From Globodera rostochiensis (taxonomy: Eukaryota; Nematoda; Chromadorea; Rhabditida; Heteroderidae): 64,000 nucleotides of DNA. Position 1 is the first letter of the stretch; each line of letters starts with the position of its first letter. Shown piece by piece: positions 7,410 through 31,237 of the stretch. Under the pieces are notes generated by a model that was given only the letters and a program-made list of their open reading frames with translations, had not been told where the DNA came from and did not search any database. The DNA is taken from assembly GCA_018350325.1 (NCBI GenBank), contig JAEVLN010000018.1:1368185-1432184 (forward strand), read 5' to 3'. A program made the translations under genes and the position numbers.

Positions 7410-7413
7410 ATAG
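7410..7413 (+). repeat. 4-bp target-site duplication, left (atag)
   Basis: Copy A has an uninterrupted cactatagtttaaat at this place. Here atag lies on both sides of the insertion (7410-7413 and 13811-13814). Confidence 0.85.
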
Positions 7414-7873
7414 TGTCGGAACTCCCGTCCGATGATCAAATAATTTGATCATTTGGGGAATTGATCGGGGAAGGAAAAGTGATTGGGAGGGTTCCACCAA
7501 TGCACACCCCCCCCCCTCACAGCGGTTTGTACGCACCCCCTCCCCCTCATTTGTCACCCAAATTGCGGTTGTCATTAACAACCACACCCACTGGTCCCCC
7601 CAAAGTACGCCCAATTCGCCCAATTCCCCCGATCAATCACATTTCAATGTTGCGCACGAGCAACATTTGGCCCCAAAACCTGTCCCCCCGTCATCACCCG
7701 ACCGTTAGGGCCACTTCTGAGGGCTATTTAAGCGATAGCTCTCCCCCAATTATTGTTCTTTTGGCGACACATTTCCCTGTGAATAAACTCCTGTTCATTC
7801 CAGTGTCCAACATCCCAATCGAACCCCTGCCCCGAATTCACACCAAAACTCCTTCTGTGGCCCTGTCCCCACA
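7414..7873 (+). repeat. 5' LTR
   Basis: Starts tgtcggaactcccgtccgat and ends ctgtccccaca. It shows no differences by eye from 13351-13810, including a C10 tract, which indicates recent insertion. It contains a short palindrome (gatcaaataatttgatc), a tatttaa-like box near 7722 and a possible polyadenylation signal (gaataaac) near 7782. Confidence 0.9.
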
Positions 7874-7878
7874 GAAAG

Positions 7879-7896
7879 TGGCGACCCTGAGCAAAG
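7879..7896 (+). other. putative primer-binding site
   Basis: Five bases after the LTR the sequence reads tggcgaccctgagc. A TGG start just inside the 5' LTR is the expected complement of a tRNA 3' CCA end. The priming tRNA cannot be named without comparing with host tRNAs. Confidence 0.5.
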
Positions 7897-8104
7897 GACC
7901 TTGACGAACCGTGCAGCCGTGCCCGCCCGTGCGCGCCCGATCAGTGCCAACACCGTGCCCAAGTCGTGTCCAAATCGTGACCAACCGCGTCCGAATCGTG
8001 ACCGCGCCTGACAACAGCATCAATCAAGGCCGTGAACCGGACGCCGACCATCAACTCGGCATTCTGGTGGAATTTCTGTAAAAGAAAAGCGGGAAAAAAC
8101 CTGT

Positions 8105-8340
8105 GGTGATTGTCCTACGTGGCAATCACACCAGACCGAAATTCAAGAACCGTGCGTGATTGTCCTACGTGGCATTCACGCTCGGGGCGAGCAACCAAGG
8201 GGCTTACGTTGTTGTGCTAAGTGCCAATAACGTAAGCGGGCAACGGGCAAAAAGTGAAAACGGGGTAGGAGCGGTCGAACAGAGTTCTACGTGGCTCTGT
8301 TCTTCCAAATGTGCTGTTCGTTCTACATGACGGACAGTAC
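8105..8340 (+). promoter_or_regulatory. array of five stem-loops with conserved loop
   Basis: Five hairpins follow one another in the untranslated leader. Their stems differ in sequence but all pair: 8106-8112/8123-8129, 8154-8162/8173-8181, 8202-8214/8225-8237, 8277-8284/8295-8302 and 8311-8320/8331-8340. Their loops are tcctacgtgg (twice), tgctaagtgc, ttctacgtgg and ttctacatga. Loop positions 3-5 are always CTA and 8-9 always TG. Positions 2 and 10 change together (C-G, G-C, T-G, T-A), so they probably pair. Conserved loops on covarying stems indicate a selected RNA structure. Position downstream of the primer site suggests packaging, dimerisation or translation control. Confidence 0.8.
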
Positions 8341-8343
8341 ATC

Positions 8344-8379
8344 ACAACAATCCGGAACGTCCGGAGCGATCAGTTGTTG
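8344..8379 (+). promoter_or_regulatory. additional hairpin after the array
   Basis: caacaa...ttgttg enclose tccgga-acg-tccgga, giving a longer imperfect stem at the junction between leader and tandem repeats. Its loop does not match the five-hairpin consensus. Confidence 0.4.
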
Positions 8380-8700
8380 AACAACAAGTTCAAGCAGCAG
8401 CAGGTTCAAGCAGCAGAAATCGGTGAACAACAGGTTCAAGCAGCAGGTCGGTGAACAACAAGTTCAAGCAGCAAACAGGTTCAAGCAGCAGGTCGGTGAA
8501 CAACAAGTTCAAGCAGCAAACAGGTTCAAGCAGCAGAAAGTTGGTGAACAACAGGTTCAAGCAGCAGAAATCGGTGAACAACAGGTTCAAGCAGCAGGTC
8601 GGTGAACAACAAGTTCAAGCAGCCAACAGGTTCAAGCAGCAGAAAGTTGGTGAACAACAGGTTCAAGCAGCAGAAAGCCGGTGAACAACAAGTCCAAGCA
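8380..8700 (+). repeat. tandem repeat block 1 (ggttcaagcagcag units)
   Basis: About a dozen short units built from ggttcaagcagcag and ggtgaacaac, each a multiple of three or near it. Read in frame they give glutamine-rich peptides, but several frames are open, so translation is unproven. Confidence 0.8.
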
Positions 8701-10143
8701 CCAACAGCACATCAGGTGCACAAACTGCACGACGCCGAACAAGCCTTGGACAACGAGTCCAAGCACCAGCAGCACATCAGGTGCACAAACGGCACGACGC
8801 CGAACAAGCCTTGGACAACGAGTCCAAGCACCAAGCAGCACATCAGGTGCACAAACGGCACGACGCCGAACAAGCCTTGGACAACGAGTCCAAGCACCAA
8901 GCAGCACATCAGGTGCACAAACGGCACGACGCCGAACAAGCCTTGGACAACGAGTCCAAGCACCAAGCAGCACATCAGGTGCACAAACGGCACGACGCCG
9001 AACAAGCCTTGGACAACGAGTCCAAGCACCAAGCAGCACATCAGGTGCACAAACGGCACGACGCCGAACAAACCTTGGACAACGAGTCCAAGCAGCACAT
9101 CAAGTGCTCAAAGCTGCACCGACACCAACAAACCTTGGACAACGAGTCCAAGGAGCACAGCAAGTGCTCAAAGCTGCACCGACACCAACAAACCTTGGAC
9201 AACGAGTCCAAGCAGCACAGCAAGTGCTCAAAGCTGCACCAACACCCATCCAGCCTTGGACAACGAGTCCAAGCAGCACAGCAAGTGCTCAAAGCTGCAC
9301 CGACACCAACAAACCTTGGACAACGAGTCCAAGCAGCACATCAAGTGCTCAAAGCTGCACCGACACCAACAAACCTTGGACAACGAGTCCAAGGAGCACA
9401 GCAAGTGCTCAAAGCTGCACCGACACCAACAAACCTTGGATAACGAGTCCAAGCAGCACAGCAAGTGCTCAAAGCTGCACCAACACCCATCCAGCCTTGG
9501 ACCACGAGTCCAAGCAGCACAGCAAGTGCTCAAAGCTGCACCAACACCCATCCAGCCTTGGACAACGAGTCCAAGCAGCACATCAAGTGCTCAAAGCTGC
9601 ACCGTCACCAATCCAGTCTTGGACAACGAGTCCAAGCAGCACATAAGTGCTCACGATACCAAACAAGCCTGGGCAACGAGTCCAAGCAGCACATCAAGTG
9701 CAAGCTGCACCGACACCAATCCAGCCGTGGACAACGAGTCCAAGCAGCACATCGAGTGCTCAAAGCTGAACCAACGGCCAAACAAGTCTTGGGCGACAAG
9801 TCCGAGCAGCACATCGAGTGCTCAAAGCTGCAGCAACCGCCAAACAAACAACGAGTCCGAGCAACACATCAAGTGCTCAGAGCGGCACAGACCTCAAAGA
9901 AACCCTGGACAACGAGTCCAAGCAGCGCATCGAGGGTTCAAAGCGGCAGCAACAACCAAACAAGTCTTGGACAACAATTCCAAGCCAAGCTGTACATCAA
10001 GTGCTCAAAGGCTACATCGACGCCAAACAAACCTTGGACAACGAGTCCAAGCAGCATTTCAAGTGCTCAAAGCAAGCAAACAGCAACCAACCAAGCCCAA
10101 CCCTGTGCGTCAAACGTGCTCGAGCAAATCCGAACCCAATTAA
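8602..10143 (+). CDS. repeat-encoded open frame, possibly not translated
   Basis: The frame is 513 codons long and starts at a GTG, not an ATG. It encodes Gln/Lys/His/Ser-rich repeats such as QHIKCSKLHRHQQTLDNESK. Two other plus frames are open over most of the same DNA (8681-9646, 9818-10498), as expected when repeats are multiples of three. It precedes the more convincing Gag-like ATG at 10854. I regard it as a low-confidence coding call; it may simply be leader repeat. Confidence 0.25.
   Translation: MNNKFKQPTGSSSRKLVNNRFKQQKAGEQQVQAPTAHQVHKLHDAEQALDNESKHQQHIRCTNGTTPNKPWTTSPSTKQHIRCTNGTTPNKPWTTSPSTKQHIRCTNGTTPNKPWTTSPSTKQHIRCTNGTTPNKPWTTSPSTKQHIRCTNGTTPNKPWTTSPSSTSSAQSCTDTNKPWTTSPRSTASAQSCTDTNKPWTTSPSSTASAQSCTNTHPALDNESKQHSKCSKLHRHQQTLDNESKQHIKCSKLHRHQQTLDNESKEHSKCSKLHRHQQTLDNESKQHSKCSKLHQHPSSLGPRVQAAQQVLKAAPTPIQPWTTSPSSTSSAQSCTVTNPVLDNESKQHISAHDTKQAWATSPSSTSSASCTDTNPAVDNESKQHIECSKLNQRPNKSWATSPSSTSSAQSCSNRQTNNESEQHIKCSERHRPQRNPGQRVQAAHRGFKAAATTKQVLDNNSKPSCTSSAQRLHRRQTNLGQRVQAAFQVLKASKQQPTKPNPVRQTCSSKSEPN
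8700..10060 (+). repeat. tandem repeat block 2 (66-bp then 60-bp units)
   Basis: About five 66-bp units (containing cggcacgacgccgaacaagc) are followed by about nine clear 60-bp units (containing agtgctcaaagctgcaccga) and then degraded ones. All share ccttggacaacgagtccaag. Because both unit lengths are multiples of three, all plus frames and several minus frames stay open. Two 60-bp types (gacaccaacaaacc and aacacccatccagcc) alternate in a higher-order pattern with a 240-bp period, visible from the rare aaggagcacagc variant at about 9150 and 9390. Confidence 0.85.
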
Positions 10144-10370
10144 CGTGGAACCAAGCACAAAGGTTTCAGACAACAAGAAACGCCGACAACTGAGAGAGAA
10201 AGCACTTCTCAGACAGCATCAACGCAAAAAGCTATTCTCAAGCATAGCGCGGCTGCGCGCCACAGCTACGAATCCAGCAGCATCCTGGTCAAAGAAGGCT
10301 GAACTCATCGACCTAACGTTGGACAGCAACGACAGCGATACCGAGGACAAACAGACACAATCCTCTCAGC
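10143..10370 (+). CDS. unique coding-like stretch between repeat blocks
   Basis: Within the open frame 9818-10498 the part after the repeats reads as a basic then acidic segment (for example RRQLREKALLRQHQRKKLF and ELIDLTLDSNDSDTEDKQ). The second resembles a SUMO-interacting-type hydrophobic-acidic patch (IDLTLDSNDSD). This is composition evidence only; no domain is recognised. Confidence 0.3.
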
Positions 10371-10800
10371 AAACTCTTGAACACCAAGTTCAAGGCGTCC
10401 AACTAGCATCAAACTCACGAACGCCGAGTTCAAGCAGTACAACAGACAGCAAACTCTTGAGCGCCGAGCGAGGAGTCCAACCAGCAGCAAACTCTTGAAC
10501 GCCGAGTTCGAGGAGTCCAACCAGCAGCAAACTCTTGAACACCAAGTTCAAGGCGTCCAACTAGCATCAAACTCACGAACGCCGAGTTCAAGCAGTACAA
10601 CAGACAGCAAACTCTTGAGCGCCGAGCGAGGAGTCCAACCAGCAGCAAACTCTTGAACGCCGAGTTCGAGGAGTCCAACCAGCAGCAAACTCTTGAACAC
10701 CAAGTTCAAGGAGTCCAACCAGCGCAAACTCTTGAACACCAAGTTCAAGGAGTCAAACCAGCTGCAAACTCTTGAACACCAAGTTCAAGCAGTTCACTAA
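10370..10800 (+). repeat. tandem repeat block 3 (caaactcttgaac units)
   Basis: About 45-bp units (caaactcttgaacaccaagttcaaggagtccaaccagc type) are arranged in two near-identical ~168-bp higher-order copies (about 10372-10540 and 10540-10700) plus shorter ones. It ends just before the Gag-like ORF. Confidence 0.75.
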
Positions 10801-10853
10801 GCATCACAAAGCCTTGATCAACGAGTTCAACAAGTACAAGCAGCACAACGACC

Positions 10854-11294
10854 ATGTCGGCACCCATTCAGCAAAAATTGGGAGCCGCACTGAAGATCCT
10901 CTCAAACGTCAGCAGCGCAGTCAAGCTCAACCTGCAGCCGGACAAGAACCTGTCCAACCTTGAGAACGCCTTACTTCTGGAGTCGCAACTGGAAAAGGTC
11001 CAGAAAGAAGGGAGAACGCTAGAAATTTTTCTGGAGGATATCCGCGAGTCTTCATCAGCCTGGACCGACCTTCTCCGGAAATTCACCGCAACAGAAAGAG
11101 ATGCCGGAGAAGCGGACTTCGCAGCATTTGACAAAAAGGAAAAGATTAACGACAAGGTCGAGGCCGCCGACACCAAACTCCGTGACCTCCGAGATTTGGC
11201 TGGGAAACTGACCGTCCAAGCCAAACTCTACCGCAGCCGAGCGAACAGCAGACCGCGAAAGAACTGCTCGAACAACACGGCAAAATACCCATGA
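10854..11294 (+). CDS. Gag-like N-terminal coiled-coil protein
   Basis: An ATG opens 146 codons beginning MSAPIQQKLGAALKILSNVS, almost entirely predicted helix with heptad-like leucines (NALLLESQLEKVQ, KLRDLRDLAGKL) and many charged residues. This style matches the start of Gag in BEL/Pao LTR elements of nematodes, by general resemblance and not alignment. The last ~20 residues (after VQAKLY) become Arg/Ser-rich. The -1 frame at the same place reads LPQPSEQQTAKELLEQHGKI and joins the next ORF smoothly, so the natural product probably shifts frame near 11230 by a mutation or by programmed -1 frameshifting. The stop overlaps the next ATG (atga). Confidence 0.6.
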   Translation: MSAPIQQKLGAALKILSNVSSAVKLNLQPDKNLSNLENALLLESQLEKVQKEGRTLEIFLEDIRESSSAWTDLLRKFTATERDAGEADFAAFDKKEKINDKVEAADTKLRDLRDLAGKLTVQAKLYRSRANSRPRKNCSNNTAKYP

Positions 11295-12436
11295 AAGATT
11301 GGGCGGCCAAGGAACAACAGATCACGGCAGAACTGCTCGAACAAGAGGAGAAACGACACAAGAAATCCAGAGACAAGCAGCAAAAACGATCGAAGCAACA
11401 AGCCTCTGAACAGCTGATGCTTCAGCGACTCTTCGGAGACTCCCCGGAACAAGCCCCAGAACAAACGACCACCACTGAAGCGGAAGACAAAGAAAGCCGC
11501 TTCCAACACAACGAAAAGCGGATCAAGTGGTACAATCATCGGCAAGCAGCCGTCGATGAACTCCGGAGAAAGATGAAGCTTAAAAAGAAACAGCAGGCGC
11601 CAGCAGCAATCGAAGAGGACATCAACGAACCTCGCAAAGAGGACGAGCAACACCTTCAAAAGCTCATCAAAGATGGAAGCAAGGAAGCCCAACGAGCCTT
11701 GGAGGCATCAAAGCAGCTAACACTTCGGCAACAATCGCAACAACGGATGCACCACAAACCCCAACGCCGCGCATCAGACCTTCCAAAGAACGGCGAAAAG
11801 CTGATCGACTTTGGTAAACGTCTGTACGGAGACCATCTCGAATCTGCCTGGAAGCGACAACGAGCATTCAAAGAAATGCAAGAAATCCTGGAATCCAACG
11901 AATTCAAGCTCTACCAAGTCAACGGACAACAAGCGACCATTAAATGTTTCCTAGCTAATCAACATGGGCTCGGAGGCATATTTGTCATCAACCGCTTTGA
12001 ATCGTTCAATCATCCAGACGAATTCGAATTTCGAACGGCACTTTCCGCATCGAAAGAAGCAACAGAGAGGCCGGAAGCACCGGAAATTATGATCGTCTCC
12101 CCGCCAAAACAAAGCGCGCCTCGACCGACAACGAGTTTAGCAGGCCGCGCGCCACCACGACCAGCGTCACCTGACATTGTGGTCATCTCGCCCCCACCGG
12201 AACAAAACCTGCCGCGACCGACAACGCGTTTTGCGGGGCATACGCCACCACCGTTTCAAGAATGGCTCGAGAAAAGGTGTCAAGAACAAAGACAGCATGT
12301 CCAAGACAAACCACTACGCATTGAAGCGTACCACCTTGCCGCCCACAAAGAAGAAACATTCGCCCCATTCGACATATTCCGGGAATGCGGCCCTGACCAC
12401 ACGTCTTGTGCCAAATCAGCAATCTACAGTGCATAG
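11291..12436 (+). CDS. novel element protein, central part
   Basis: This is 381 codons in the -1 frame relative to the Gag-like ORF. It starts at ATG in an atga overlap but is probably reached by frame change upstream (open from about 11230). The first 130 residues are a charged Gln/Glu/Lys coiled coil (ITAELLEQEEKRHKKSRDKQ). The middle has a folded-looking stretch (KLIDFGKRLYGDHLESAWKR ... IFVINRFESFNHPDEFEFRT). Two parallel Pro-rich repeats follow (EIMIVSPP / DIVVISPPP, each with RPTT), then PPFQEWLEKR. There are no zinc knuckles and no catalytic motifs of protease or polymerase. I do not recognise the family. Confidence 0.55.
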   Translation: MKDWAAKEQQITAELLEQEEKRHKKSRDKQQKRSKQQASEQLMLQRLFGDSPEQAPEQTTTTEAEDKESRFQHNEKRIKWYNHRQAAVDELRRKMKLKKKQQAPAAIEEDINEPRKEDEQHLQKLIKDGSKEAQRALEASKQLTLRQQSQQRMHHKPQRRASDLPKNGEKLIDFGKRLYGDHLESAWKRQRAFKEMQEILESNEFKLYQVNGQQATIKCFLANQHGLGGIFVINRFESFNHPDEFEFRTALSASKEATERPEAPEIMIVSPPKQSAPRPTTSLAGRAPPRPASPDIVVISPPPEQNLPRPTTRFAGHTPPPFQEWLEKRCQEQRQHVQDKPLRIEAYHLAAHKEETFAPFDIFRECGPDHTSCAKSAIYSA

Positions 12437-13385
12437 ATACCAGCCTAATCCGTACGAAACATGGCAACTTCACGAGGATTATGCCCTCCTCGACGGACCA
12501 ATGCAACGAGAAGCGGCCGAACATTTTTGGACGCACCAAGTAATCAACCAAAAGCGCCCTTTGTTCAAACCGGCAACACTCTTCACCACCATCGACCACT
12601 GGCGTAAATCTTGTGACCAATTCGCGGAATTGTTCCAGCCTCCATCAATGGCACCCATCAAATTCAAGCCAATCATCAATACCCAAACATCCAGCCCATT
12701 CCAAGTTTGGCTTGACGAGATCAACAACCACGCCAGTGACAAAGCTTCGCAAATAAAGGCCAAGATCCACTTTCCTAAAAGTCGGTATCTTAACAACTCA
12801 GAAACTATCGTCATCGGCGAATCCATTGCCGAAGCCTTTTCGCACAGCATGCGAAATGCCTTCTGGTTCTCGCACGCTGTGAAAAACCCACTCCGAGTAT
12901 TCTTCGGCCCCCGGGTCCGACGACTGGTTTTCGCCTACGACGCCGACGTCGAAAACATCGTCCAATACTTGGCGCCAATCATCCATCCGTTATCCAAAAC
13001 GGACATTGGAATGACCATCATACTGGGCAAAGAGGACAACTTGGATTGGCTGCAAAACAAGCGGAACATTCTCAGCTTGGCTCAAAGCTTCAAAATCGGC
13101 TTCTTCGTGTTCAACGGAAAGCCCGGCGAACTCTTGGCCATCTCAGAACGAATACAAGGCCAACAAGTGGAGGACATGGACCTGGATCCTACACCTTCAA
13201 CTTCTGCTCTATCGAACTCATCCCGACCGAACCCAACGCCCAAAAAACGTTCGTCTGGACAAATGACTCACCGCGGAGGACCGACAGACGAGCCCGATCA
13301 AAAGAAAGGACGGAGGGGCCACCCACTTCGGACGCGCCTGCCGTCGGGAATGTCGGAACTCCCGTCCGATGATCAAATAATTTGA
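12177..13385 (+). CDS. novel element protein, C-terminal part
   Basis: The frame is open from 12177, but its convincing part starts about 12435 (YQPNPYETWQLHEDYALLDG), right where the previous frame ends, so a second frame change or damage joins the two. It contains SPFQVWLDEINNH, echoing PPFQEWLEKR of the previous frame, and then a mixed alpha/beta segment of about 150 residues (ETIVIGESIAEAFSHSMRNA ... VRRLVFAYDADVENIVQYLA ... IGMTIILGKEDNLDWLQNKR). The end is low-complexity and basic. The last ~11 codons lie in the 3' LTR. The alpha/beta part looks like a cellular protein domain captured by the element, but I cannot name it. Confidence 0.55.
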   Translation: MWSSRPHRNKTCRDRQRVLRGIRHHRFKNGSRKGVKNKDSMSKTNHYALKRTTLPPTKKKHSPHSTYSGNAALTTRLVPNQQSTVHRYQPNPYETWQLHEDYALLDGPMQREAAEHFWTHQVINQKRPLFKPATLFTTIDHWRKSCDQFAELFQPPSMAPIKFKPIINTQTSSPFQVWLDEINNHASDKASQIKAKIHFPKSRYLNNSETIVIGESIAEAFSHSMRNAFWFSHAVKNPLRVFFGPRVRRLVFAYDADVENIVQYLAPIIHPLSKTDIGMTIILGKEDNLDWLQNKRNILSLAQSFKIGFFVFNGKPGELLAISERIQGQQVEDMDLDPTPSTSALSNSSRPNPTPKKRSSGQMTHRGGPTDEPDQKKGRRGHPLRTRLPSGMSELPSDDQII

Positions 13386-13810
13386 TCATTTGGGGAATTG
13401 ATCGGGGAAGGAAAAGTGATTGGGAGGGTTCCACCAATGCACACCCCCCCCCCTCACAGCGGTTTGTACGCACCCCCTCCCCCTCATTTGTCACCCAAAT
13501 TGCGGTTGTCATTAACAACCACACCCACTGGTCCCCCCAAAGTACGCCCAATTCGCCCAATTCCCCCGATCAATCACATTTCAATGTTGCGCACGAGCAA
13601 CATTTGGCCCCAAAACCTGTCCCCCCGTCATCACCCGACCGTTAGGGCCACTTCTGAGGGCTATTTAAGCGATAGCTCTCCCCCAATTATTGTTCTTTTG
13701 GCGACACATTTCCCTGTGAATAAACTCCTGTTCATTCCAGTGTCCAACATCCCAATCGAACCCCTGCCCCGAATTCACACCAAAACTCCTTCTGTGGCCC
13801 TGTCCCCACA
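13351..13810 (+). repeat. 3' LTR
   Basis: Direct repeat of 7414-7873. A purine-rich tract (gaaaggacggagggg, about 13303-13318) lies about 35 bp upstream as a candidate polypurine tract, though it is not directly adjacent. It is followed by the right target duplication atag (13811-13814). Confidence 0.9.
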
Positions 13811-15112
13811 ATAGTTTAAATAATATTAATTTTAATGGGGCGCTTTAAATCAGCCATTAATTTTAAAAAGGCCGGAGTTTGTGTTTGAGCGATAACTCAA
13901 TGACTTTATTTTAATTATTTTAATGAAAAAGTATGTACTTTTATTACTTTTTTTATTGACTAAATACAATAATATTAATTTTGAGACTAAAATTTTTTTA
14001 TTAATTATTTGAATGTTAAAAACTCTGTGGTTTTGCACAATCACGTTATATGTTTGATGCAAATGAGAATCATCGCCGGATCGTTCATTAATCTATTAAA
14101 AATTCAGAACTTGAGGGATATTTAAAATAAATTTTAAATTTTATAAATTTCACATTTTTATCGTTTGTTTATTTACTAATATTAATCTCTGTGAGATTAG
14201 TATGTGCCTTGAGCAGTCGGTCCGTTTGTCTGTGTAATCCTTTCTTTAATGTGTTTATAAATAAATTCCATTTTTATATTTTGCATAATAATTAAAAAGA
14301 CCACAATTGATTTAAATAATTATTTAATATTAGGTTCAAAACTTTCTGTTAATTTTATATCATAATAGTTAAATCACAGGCATTGAAATAAAACAATTTG
14401 CTTTAAGGTTCAAATTTGACATTTTGATATAAGACTTTTACATTAAATAGATTGAATTATCTGTTAAATCAATGATTGCTTTCTAAGAATAGCACCTTTG
14501 AAGAATTTTTAAAATTTATCTAATCATAAAATGGATTTTAAAATTACTTGAATGCTTTGCAGTAAATAAGTTTATGGGATTTTTGTTTTTTTACACTTTA
14601 TATACATACTGTTTATAACAAGTTTGCAATTGAAGATTTTTTGTTTTGAATTTATTTTTTAACTGAACATTTTAAGATTTTTACTTCATCGATAACTAGC
14701 CTTTCAGTGTTATATGCTACTTTAATAATATTATAGTTAAATAATAATCTTATCTTTTTTTGGACGACCTTTATGGTATCTGCGTTAACGGAAATTTGCT
14801 ATACCGATTCATATTATTACTAATAACGCAAACATTTATTTTTGCTTAATATTTTGCTTTTATTTTTGTTAAATAAAAGAAAATTTATTAAATGTTTTAT
14901 TCTCTGGTATATAGCACAATAAAATGCAATCTCTTGGCTAGAGACCTGAACTCTTTAACAATTTTAACATAAGTTTTATAATCCAATAAAGAATTTTAAA
15001 TATTAAGGGGAGGGGGGGGGGGGGGGGATTTGTGCACATATTAACGGATAAATTAGATTTTAGTGTAATTATTTTTTGAAATTATCCATGTTTGTACTTC
15101 GTAAGCGAAAAA
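13811..15112. mobile_element. TIR element, copy B, right part
   Basis: Continues the duplicated block after the LTR insertion and matches 2250-3546 except for the length of the G tract near 15010. It stops at gtaagcgaaaaa, before the right inverted repeat of copy A, so copy B lacks that arm and could not move by itself. Confidence 0.8.
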
Positions 15113-31033: not shown

Positions 31034-31237
31034 TTGAAGGTTTACCCCTTCTGTACATGTCGTCACGTTGACGACTGTCTCGTCAACCAGCTGCTGAACT
31101 TGATCCAATTGGTCGTGATCGCCGGTTCACAAAGGAATAATTCGGGCACAATATATTGGCGGTTTCTGCAAAAGGGGAAAATTCTCTATTTGAATTTTTT
31201 GTTTCAAATTTATTCATCATTTTTTAAAAGTTTTTAG
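31034..31237 (+). CDS. ORF partly repeated at 37049-37260
   Basis: Reads VYPFCTCRHVDDCLVNQLLN then LIQLVVIAGSQ in a G+C-rich head. The tail, from about 31128, is paralogous to 37090-37260 (aatatattggcggtttct in both). In the paralog another frame is open (NNSPLNNILAVSLKGKNS), so the reading frame is unresolved. Confidence 0.3.
   Translation: MKVYPFCTCRHVDDCLVNQLLNLIQLVVIAGSQRNNSGTIYWRFLQKGKILYLNFLFQIYSSFFKSF

Follow-up and report, generated by a model that had tools for sequence, protein, structure and literature searches.

The window, by which we mean the whole 64-kb stretch of DNA analyzed here (G000:C10:1368185-1432184, from a 92.6-Mb nematode genome), contains an LTR element spanning positions 7414-13810. 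Table 1 lists its features. The TG...CA ends of its 460-bp LTRs, the ATAG duplication and TGGCGACC located 5 nt past the LTR identify it as an LTR retrotransposon. A duplicate of the surrounding repeat, at 2143-2260, represents the empty, pre-insertion site, with a single ATAG. From the identical LTRs, the ATAG flanks and this empty site, we infer a recent insertion. The primer site also starts with TGGCGACC in the related loci L041, L042, L043, L045 and L051, and with TGGTGACC instead in L050. TGGCGACC resembles tRNA-Arg, a tentative assignment.

Table 1 Features of the LTR element and its leader in the window
Feature	Position	Strand	Basis or detail
Target-site duplication ATAG	7410-7413 (left), 13811-13814 (right)	.	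Both flanks compared
5' LTR, 460 bp, TG...CA ends	7414-7873	+	TATTTAAG at 7725, AATAAA at 7782
Primer-binding site TGGCGACCCTGAGC...	7879-7896	+	5 nt 3' of LTR; read in letters
Hairpin 1, loop CUACGUG	8106-8129	+	Descriptor match and fold; loop C at 8115
Hairpin 2, loop CUACGUG	8156-8179	+	One mismatch, near-duplicate of hairpin 1; loop C at 8165
Hairpin 3, loop CUAAGUG	8202-8237	+	13-pair stem, bulged U with G-C pair; loop C at 8217
Hairpin 4, loop CUACGUG	8277-8302	+	Loop C at 8287
Hairpin 5, loop CUACAUG	8309-8342	+	12-pair stem with wobble pairs; loop C at 8323
Short hairpin TCCGGA-ACG-TCCGGA	8351-8365	+	Immediately 3' of array; folded in relative L043
Tandem repeats forming pentaloop hairpins (CUUGGAC-AACGA-GUCCAAG and kin)	8401-10793	+	Repeat reading and folding
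gag 5' end	10854-11247	+	ATG at 10854; similarity to DUF1759-bearing relatives ends at 11247
Open frames, family not assigned, replacing remainder of gag-pol	11248-13382	+	Open-frame reading
3' LTR	13351-13810	+	460/460 bases identical to 5' LTR

Three open frames from the 11248-13382 part gave 0 family matches in Pfam, and the coding region of the window copy has no match to DUF1759 or to the Pao peptidase. The long overlapping frames that replace most of gag-pol, at 11186-13382, have related pieces in L012, L019 and L021. In another nematode, a BEL/Pao element is on record as having captured a foreign gene (excerpt of PMC5177903). The lineage was placed in BEL/Pao because array-bearing relatives carry DUF1759, DUF1758 (in L020) and Peptidase_A17 (in the elements of C12, C14 and C16, after DUF1759 in the same open frame), as do metazoan BEL/Pao elements, likewise with LTRs, in excerpts of PMC3118150 and PMC554778. 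A CX2CX4HX4C zinc knuckle follows DUF1759 in 7/7 loci inspected, in another frame in L051. Judged by its sequence, the window element is a derived, non-autonomous copy of BEL/Pao descent.

Five hairpins with a shared tip

The original prediction placed five consecutive hairpins in the leader of this element, between primer-binding site and coding region, and this location was confirmed. All five fold on the + strand, with roughly 7 to 13 base pairs per stem. As claimed, CTA and TG are invariant in the loops, positions 2 and 10 covary (C-G, C-G, G-C, T-G and T-A in hairpins 1 to 5), and the wobble pairs 8211/8228, 8318/8333 and 8313/8338 are all present. The stems had also been called unrelated, which does not hold for hairpins 1 and 2: these match at 23/24 core bases, hairpin 2 having a T-T mismatch, so that only four stems are independent. 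Of the predicted 10-nt loop, the shared tip stands, but a 7-nt tip, CUAMRUG, plus one extra 5' base is the better drawing.

Two drawings of the tip were considered. In drawing A, a base is bulged and N-N' and C-G pairs close a pentaloop. In drawing B, the usual minimum-energy fold, a Y-G pair closes the hexaloop CUAMRU. The G/C form of hairpin 3 is compatible with the bulged drawing only, and the C/A form of hairpin 5 (L020) and the first L050 loop with the hexaloop drawing only. The neck pair of hairpin 3 is G-C in the window and U-A in several other copies, and the loop of hairpin 5 reads CUACGUG in L009-L011, L015-L018 and L020. We take the conserved unit to be a tip sequence on a flexible neck.

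A strict descriptor, requiring CTA[AC][AG]TG between paired bases and 6 of 7 stem pairs, matched five times in the 64-kb window, always in the array, and never on the - strand. It gave 18 matches in total, at most 2 each, in 100 dinucleotide shuffles of the window, and a mean of 0.0005 (maximum 1) in 2,000 shuffles of 8090-8350. The looser descriptor CTANNTG added one window match, at 31186. Rarity of the loop heptamer by itself was rejected as a signal, its count in the window being 21 versus 21.2 expected. The 256 nt of 8095-8350 folded with z = -5.9, and 0/200 shuffles were equally stable. A hairpin cluster of this kind would not be expected from chance alone. Rfam gave 0 matches at gathering score over the whole window.

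Conservation of the array among copies

A BLAST search of the genome with the leader found 16 places. We read 14 stretches, i.e., 13 loci and the window, two of the four C2 copies lying outside this sample. The set of five is complete in 12/14 stretches, each stem having no fewer than 5 of 7 pairs, and these stretches include both DUF1759-bearing and gag-less copies; L019 has four hairpins and L021 one. Arrays in the leaders of autonomous partner elements, which the original prediction anticipated, were found: DUF1759 was matched at 6/16 leader places (C74, C16, C14, C10:1335231, C12 and C56) and not at 10/16, the former count being a lower bound. Neither absence of the pattern from other elements nor loss of pairing, the two outcomes named against the prediction, was observed, apart from erosion of hairpin 2 to 5 of 7 pairs in L017, L018 and L020. 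L018, a C2 copy, keeps LTR and five hairpins; its LTR pair is 98.7% identical, and its sole open frame, of 150 aa, overlies the LTR. Leader copies also occur head to tail, four at C2 2852224-2867282 with a period of 4933 and three at C22 222110-234648 with a period of about 6142; these series are perhaps tandem LTR-internal units.

In an alignment of seven leaders, invariant columns amounted to 32/35 in loops, 83/98 in stems, 67/97 in spacers and 11/15 in necks, with mean pairwise differences of 0.030, 0.066, 0.099 and 0.133, respectively. Conservation within the array is highest in the loop heptamers and lowest at the three neck positions of each hairpin (U, N, N').

Maintenance of pairing was analyzed in orthologous hairpins by placing the observed substitutions randomly among paired sites of like base. 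Between L050 and L062 (4 hairpins), 41/49 pairs were kept versus 34.9 expected using the fold of one partner (P 0.0012) and 43/54 versus 35.9 using that of the other (P 0.0030). Between L041 and L045 (7 hairpins), 80/87 were kept versus 77.0 expected (P 0.031), and with the other fold 83/88 versus 77.5, a result reached in 0 of 5,000 randomizations. Both comparisons hold with one previously omitted hairpin per pair included. Within the window family, four comparisons that are not independent of one another gave, for the two folds, P values of 0.002 and 0.042 (window/L020), 0.008 and 0.054 (window/L012), 0.002 and 0.16 (L010/L020), and 0.033 and 0.18 (window/L010). Many pair columns break between close copies, often distal ones. 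Pairing is thus well supported where leaders have diverged and modestly so among close copies. In a hand-picked set from the window family, comprising 18 distinct hairpins taken singly and mixing paralogous stems, 95.1% of cells pair, and covariation was 0.891 versus 0.231 after shuffling and at most 0.225 after sliding.

Strand preference was also addressed. In a fixed ladder over 50 distinct hairpins, the 400 cells comprised 263 Watson-Crick, 45 G-U, 20 A-C and 72 other combinations. The sense fold was more stable than the antisense fold in 48/58 hairpins. Both counts exclude L011, L013, L014, L016, L018, L019 and L021 and five L045/L050 hairpins. The G-U excess and the sense-strand stability point to RNA, rather than DNA, as the favored strand. 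Conserved loops, a fixed hairpin set, pairing under change and RNA-strand bias together support the selected RNA structure initially proposed.

Tandem repeats of about 2.4 kb lie between array and gag. Their main units, CUUGGAC-AACGA-GUCCAAG and CUUGAAC-ACCAA-GUUCAAG, differ by a compensated G-C/A-U pair. Perfect pentaloop hairpins of at least 7 pairs number 24 in the repeats, versus 0.7 in shuffles (maximum 3); the coding stretch has 2, and the antisense reading of the repeats 21. Of the 24, 23 have a C-G closing pair. C-G-closed pentaloops, counted over 3 kb in copies without a gag start, are most numerous in the C22 copies (25-26) and the window (23), followed by 16 in L009, 9 in L015, 6 in L020, one each in L010, L011 and L016, none in L017, and one, of other sequence, in L019. 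They range from 1 to 16 in DUF1759-bearing copies, and gag-less copies of the C2 and C45 types have 0 and 1. As they are tandem copies of one another, these hairpins are not independent evidence.

Sister families with other loops

The DUF1759 domains of L041, L042, L045, L050 and L051 are 82-87% identical to that of L043, and the leader BLAST did not recover their leaders. When read in letters, these leaders showed arrays at the equivalent place with different, family-specific loops, CUUUGAG in one group and CUUCGUG/CUCCGUG in another. GUCCUUUGAGGC-type tips occur in the leaders of L041, L042 and L045, where one such hairpin also lies within the LTR. The tips are CUUCGUG, CUUUGUG and CUCCGUG in L050 and CUUCGUG and CUCCGUG in L051; L062 has a more diverged leader of the L050 type. 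With sister patterns written after the sequences had been seen, all occurrences folded at a hairpin tip, in L041 (6/6), L042 (6/6), L045 (9/9), L050 (8/8, the last five weak or differently folded) and L051 (7/7), as they did in L043 and the window (5/5 each). Some array members fall outside the patterns, i.e., a CUCUGAG tip in L041 and others in L050. In position searches, the arrays of L051, L045 and L050 were matched by 11, 8 and 5 rows, respectively; these numbers count the source itself, and some places account for two rows.

A covariance-model search, a check originally suggested and run here on 39 sources, gave a split outcome: the arrays of the window and of L043 were recovered, and no array of a sister family rose above noise. 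With the single-hairpin model R1, 14 matches were obtained up to E 10, of which ten were the window and L043 arrays and the others L059 (E 0.013), L044 and L046 (0.55) and hairpin 1 of L050 (E 8.7). The common architecture of the sister arrays thus rests on reading and folding. A genome-wide search with the array pattern produced 47 places, of which 12 are known elements, with 471 matches in the reversed control. Another 33 places, on C18, C20 and C67, show tandem-repeat-like spacing, and two are single matches, at C20:111369 and C56:2368024. The elements of C12, C14 and C16, with AGG in hairpin 3, escaped the pattern. We rejected it as a source of new families on account of this spacing, the control matches and the known elements missed. 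Tandem-repeat-like matches are seen about 51 bp apart at C20 548334-548847 and roughly 40-65 bp apart at C67 3722738-3723887.

Distant BEL families were scanned de novo for a single loop shared by several different stems, and the score reached at most 3 in 34 loci, equal to the antisense strands; for 22 of the 34 it covered 1.5 kb upstream of DUF1759, and it is insensitive, the known sister arrays scoring 1 (L041), 2 (L042, L050 and L051) and 4 (L045). L028-L030 fold poorly. In L037, a distant BEL family, CUGCCNGNG tips on different stems occur at 328-440 of the element strand, 3/4 of them at hairpin ends, and may form another array. No relatives were found in the viral contigs searched.

The LTRs of several loci contain or adjoin an exact 22-nt SL1 spliced-leader sequence (L028, L029, L030, L041, L042, L045, L050, L051 and L062), with AATAAA within about 25 nt of it in 8/9; the window family has no SL1 in its LTR. 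The genome holds 122 exact SL1 copies, which supports its nematode origin; among them, in the matches listed, are some pairs 4-5 kb apart and head-to-tail series on C12 and C23. The 22-nt sequence carries the name SL1 in excerpts of PMC7181701 and PMC3315495, the former also recording SL1 beside PAO elements in Brugia malayi.

A candidate packaging region and its rivals

The hairpin rows in these leaders look like possible address labels for packing RNA into virus-like particles. The place of the array, a shared tip on changing stems, a zinc-knuckle Gag in relatives, the fixed number of hairpins and their retention in gag-less copies lead us to propose it as a candidate cis-acting region for RNA packaging in a BEL/Pao lineage of LTR retrotransposons, a reading to which we give an even chance. 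A structured leader between primer site and gag, a feature of packaging signals, is present, the five hairpins are constant in number and order, and their stems tend to stay paired despite substitution. Several observations weigh against it. Any cis role, such as export or reverse transcription, would explain equally well why gag-less copies keep the array, pairing support between close copies is modest and the within-family comparisons are not independent, necks are the least conserved part and hairpin 2 erodes in three copies, and the window-family model found no sister array above noise.

A nematode RNA-binding protein might instead read the loops for export, stability or translational control, or the leader might shape scanning. 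This is unlikely in our estimate, but it draws on the paucity of AUG from primer site to gag (0-2 observed versus 4.3-19.4 expected), which is equally compatible with a packaging and with a translational role. Relative to 300 shuffles per leader, L041, L045, L050, L051, L043 and L015 have 0 AUG versus 4.3-8.5 expected, L042 has 1 versus 5.1 and the window 2 versus 19.4; L009 and L010 were outside this count. In the AUG-poor leader of the window, at 7874-10853, both AUGs lie within hairpin 5, and the sole L042 AUG overlaps the primer site, as does one in L041 just ahead of the counted stretch. As the gag start is nearly the first AUG, the leader RNA is probably scanned by ribosomes. Since gag-less copies keep the array, however, it does not serve solely the translation of gag in cis, and one shared reader would not predict loops that differ among sister families of one host.

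Pairing of two genomic RNAs through loops that kiss via an ACGU palindrome appears very unlikely. ACGU is found in 3/5 window loops and in 3 or 4 of 5 in other full copies, but the loops of hairpin 3 (AAGU, AGGU) and of the sister families (UUUGA, UUCGU, UCCGU) are not self-complementary. This disfavors loop-loop dimerization and rules out kissing-loop dimers as a general explanation. It is also very unlikely that in reverse transcription the primer tRNA is held, or imitated, by the hairpins. The resemblance of the TGGCGACC primer site to tRNA-Arg would agree with such a role; ACG, UCG and CCG are common in the loops, many of which read C-U-N-C-G, presumably like tRNA-Arg anticodon loops, but UNCG is simply a stable loop, and AAG, ACA, AGG and UUUGA do not fit; anticodon-arm mimicry is weak with several loops incompatible. 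There is, lastly, a small likelihood that the array has no function and consists of inverted repeats that expand by duplication and are structured by appearance alone. The duplication of hairpins 1 and 2 and the variation of the downstream repeat hairpins from 0 to 26 would agree with this; the fixed number and order of the five hairpins, loops more conserved than spacers, pairing maintained under substitution and a G-U bias toward the RNA strand argue against it.

If the array is a packaging region, the Gag zinc knuckle supplied by autonomous copies would read the loop, and several Gag molecules could bind cooperatively on neighboring hairpins. Bound Gag would mark the genomic RNA for particle capture, and gag-less copies, that of the window included, would be carried along since they display the same loops. 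Binding of Gag could also switch the leader RNA from translation to packaging. The downstream pentaloop hairpins may act as additional, weaker sites or may simply reflect expansion of the repeats. More tentatively, and with low confidence, we suggest a loop code in which each BEL/Pao subfamily of the clade has its own array loop matched by its own Gag. Packaging would then be private to the subfamily, gag-less copies would live by keeping the code, and expanded pentaloops could be extra bait of the parasite.

Shared leader-hairpin loops are already known from retroviral packaging regions, and shared tip motifs from ssRNA-virus signals. In the Psi leaders of retroviruses, GACG tetraloop hairpins with a shared loop are implicated in packaging (excerpt of PMC516450). 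The window array likewise consists of leader hairpins with one shared loop, but it differs in the loop, an extra 5' base, more hairpins, a BEL/Pao element and Gag binding that is putative, and sister families within one host have different loops. MS2 and other ssRNA viruses have multiple dispersed packaging signals with an apical loop motif and a 5' bulge (excerpt of PMC6281560). The array resembles them in its varied stems, one tip motif and unpaired 5'-side base; unlike them, it is clustered in 240 nt of untranslated leader. In LTR retrotransposons, packaging signals are difficult to detect since it is mainly structure that is kept, as an excerpt of PMC4558846 states for TRIM elements. A word search for "hairpin" and "packaging" in the main texts of PMC3118150 and PMC554778, as far as available, returned neither. 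For BEL/Pao, no description of a leader hairpin array was found among the matches listed, from a partial coverage of the literature that does not prove absence.

One genome shows changes in number, loop and stem, in DUF1759-bearing copies, gag-less copies and loop-switched sister families. In effect, nature has mutagenized a possible Gag-RNA code in these arrays, and the recognition and mobilization of non-autonomous elements become open to direct testing.
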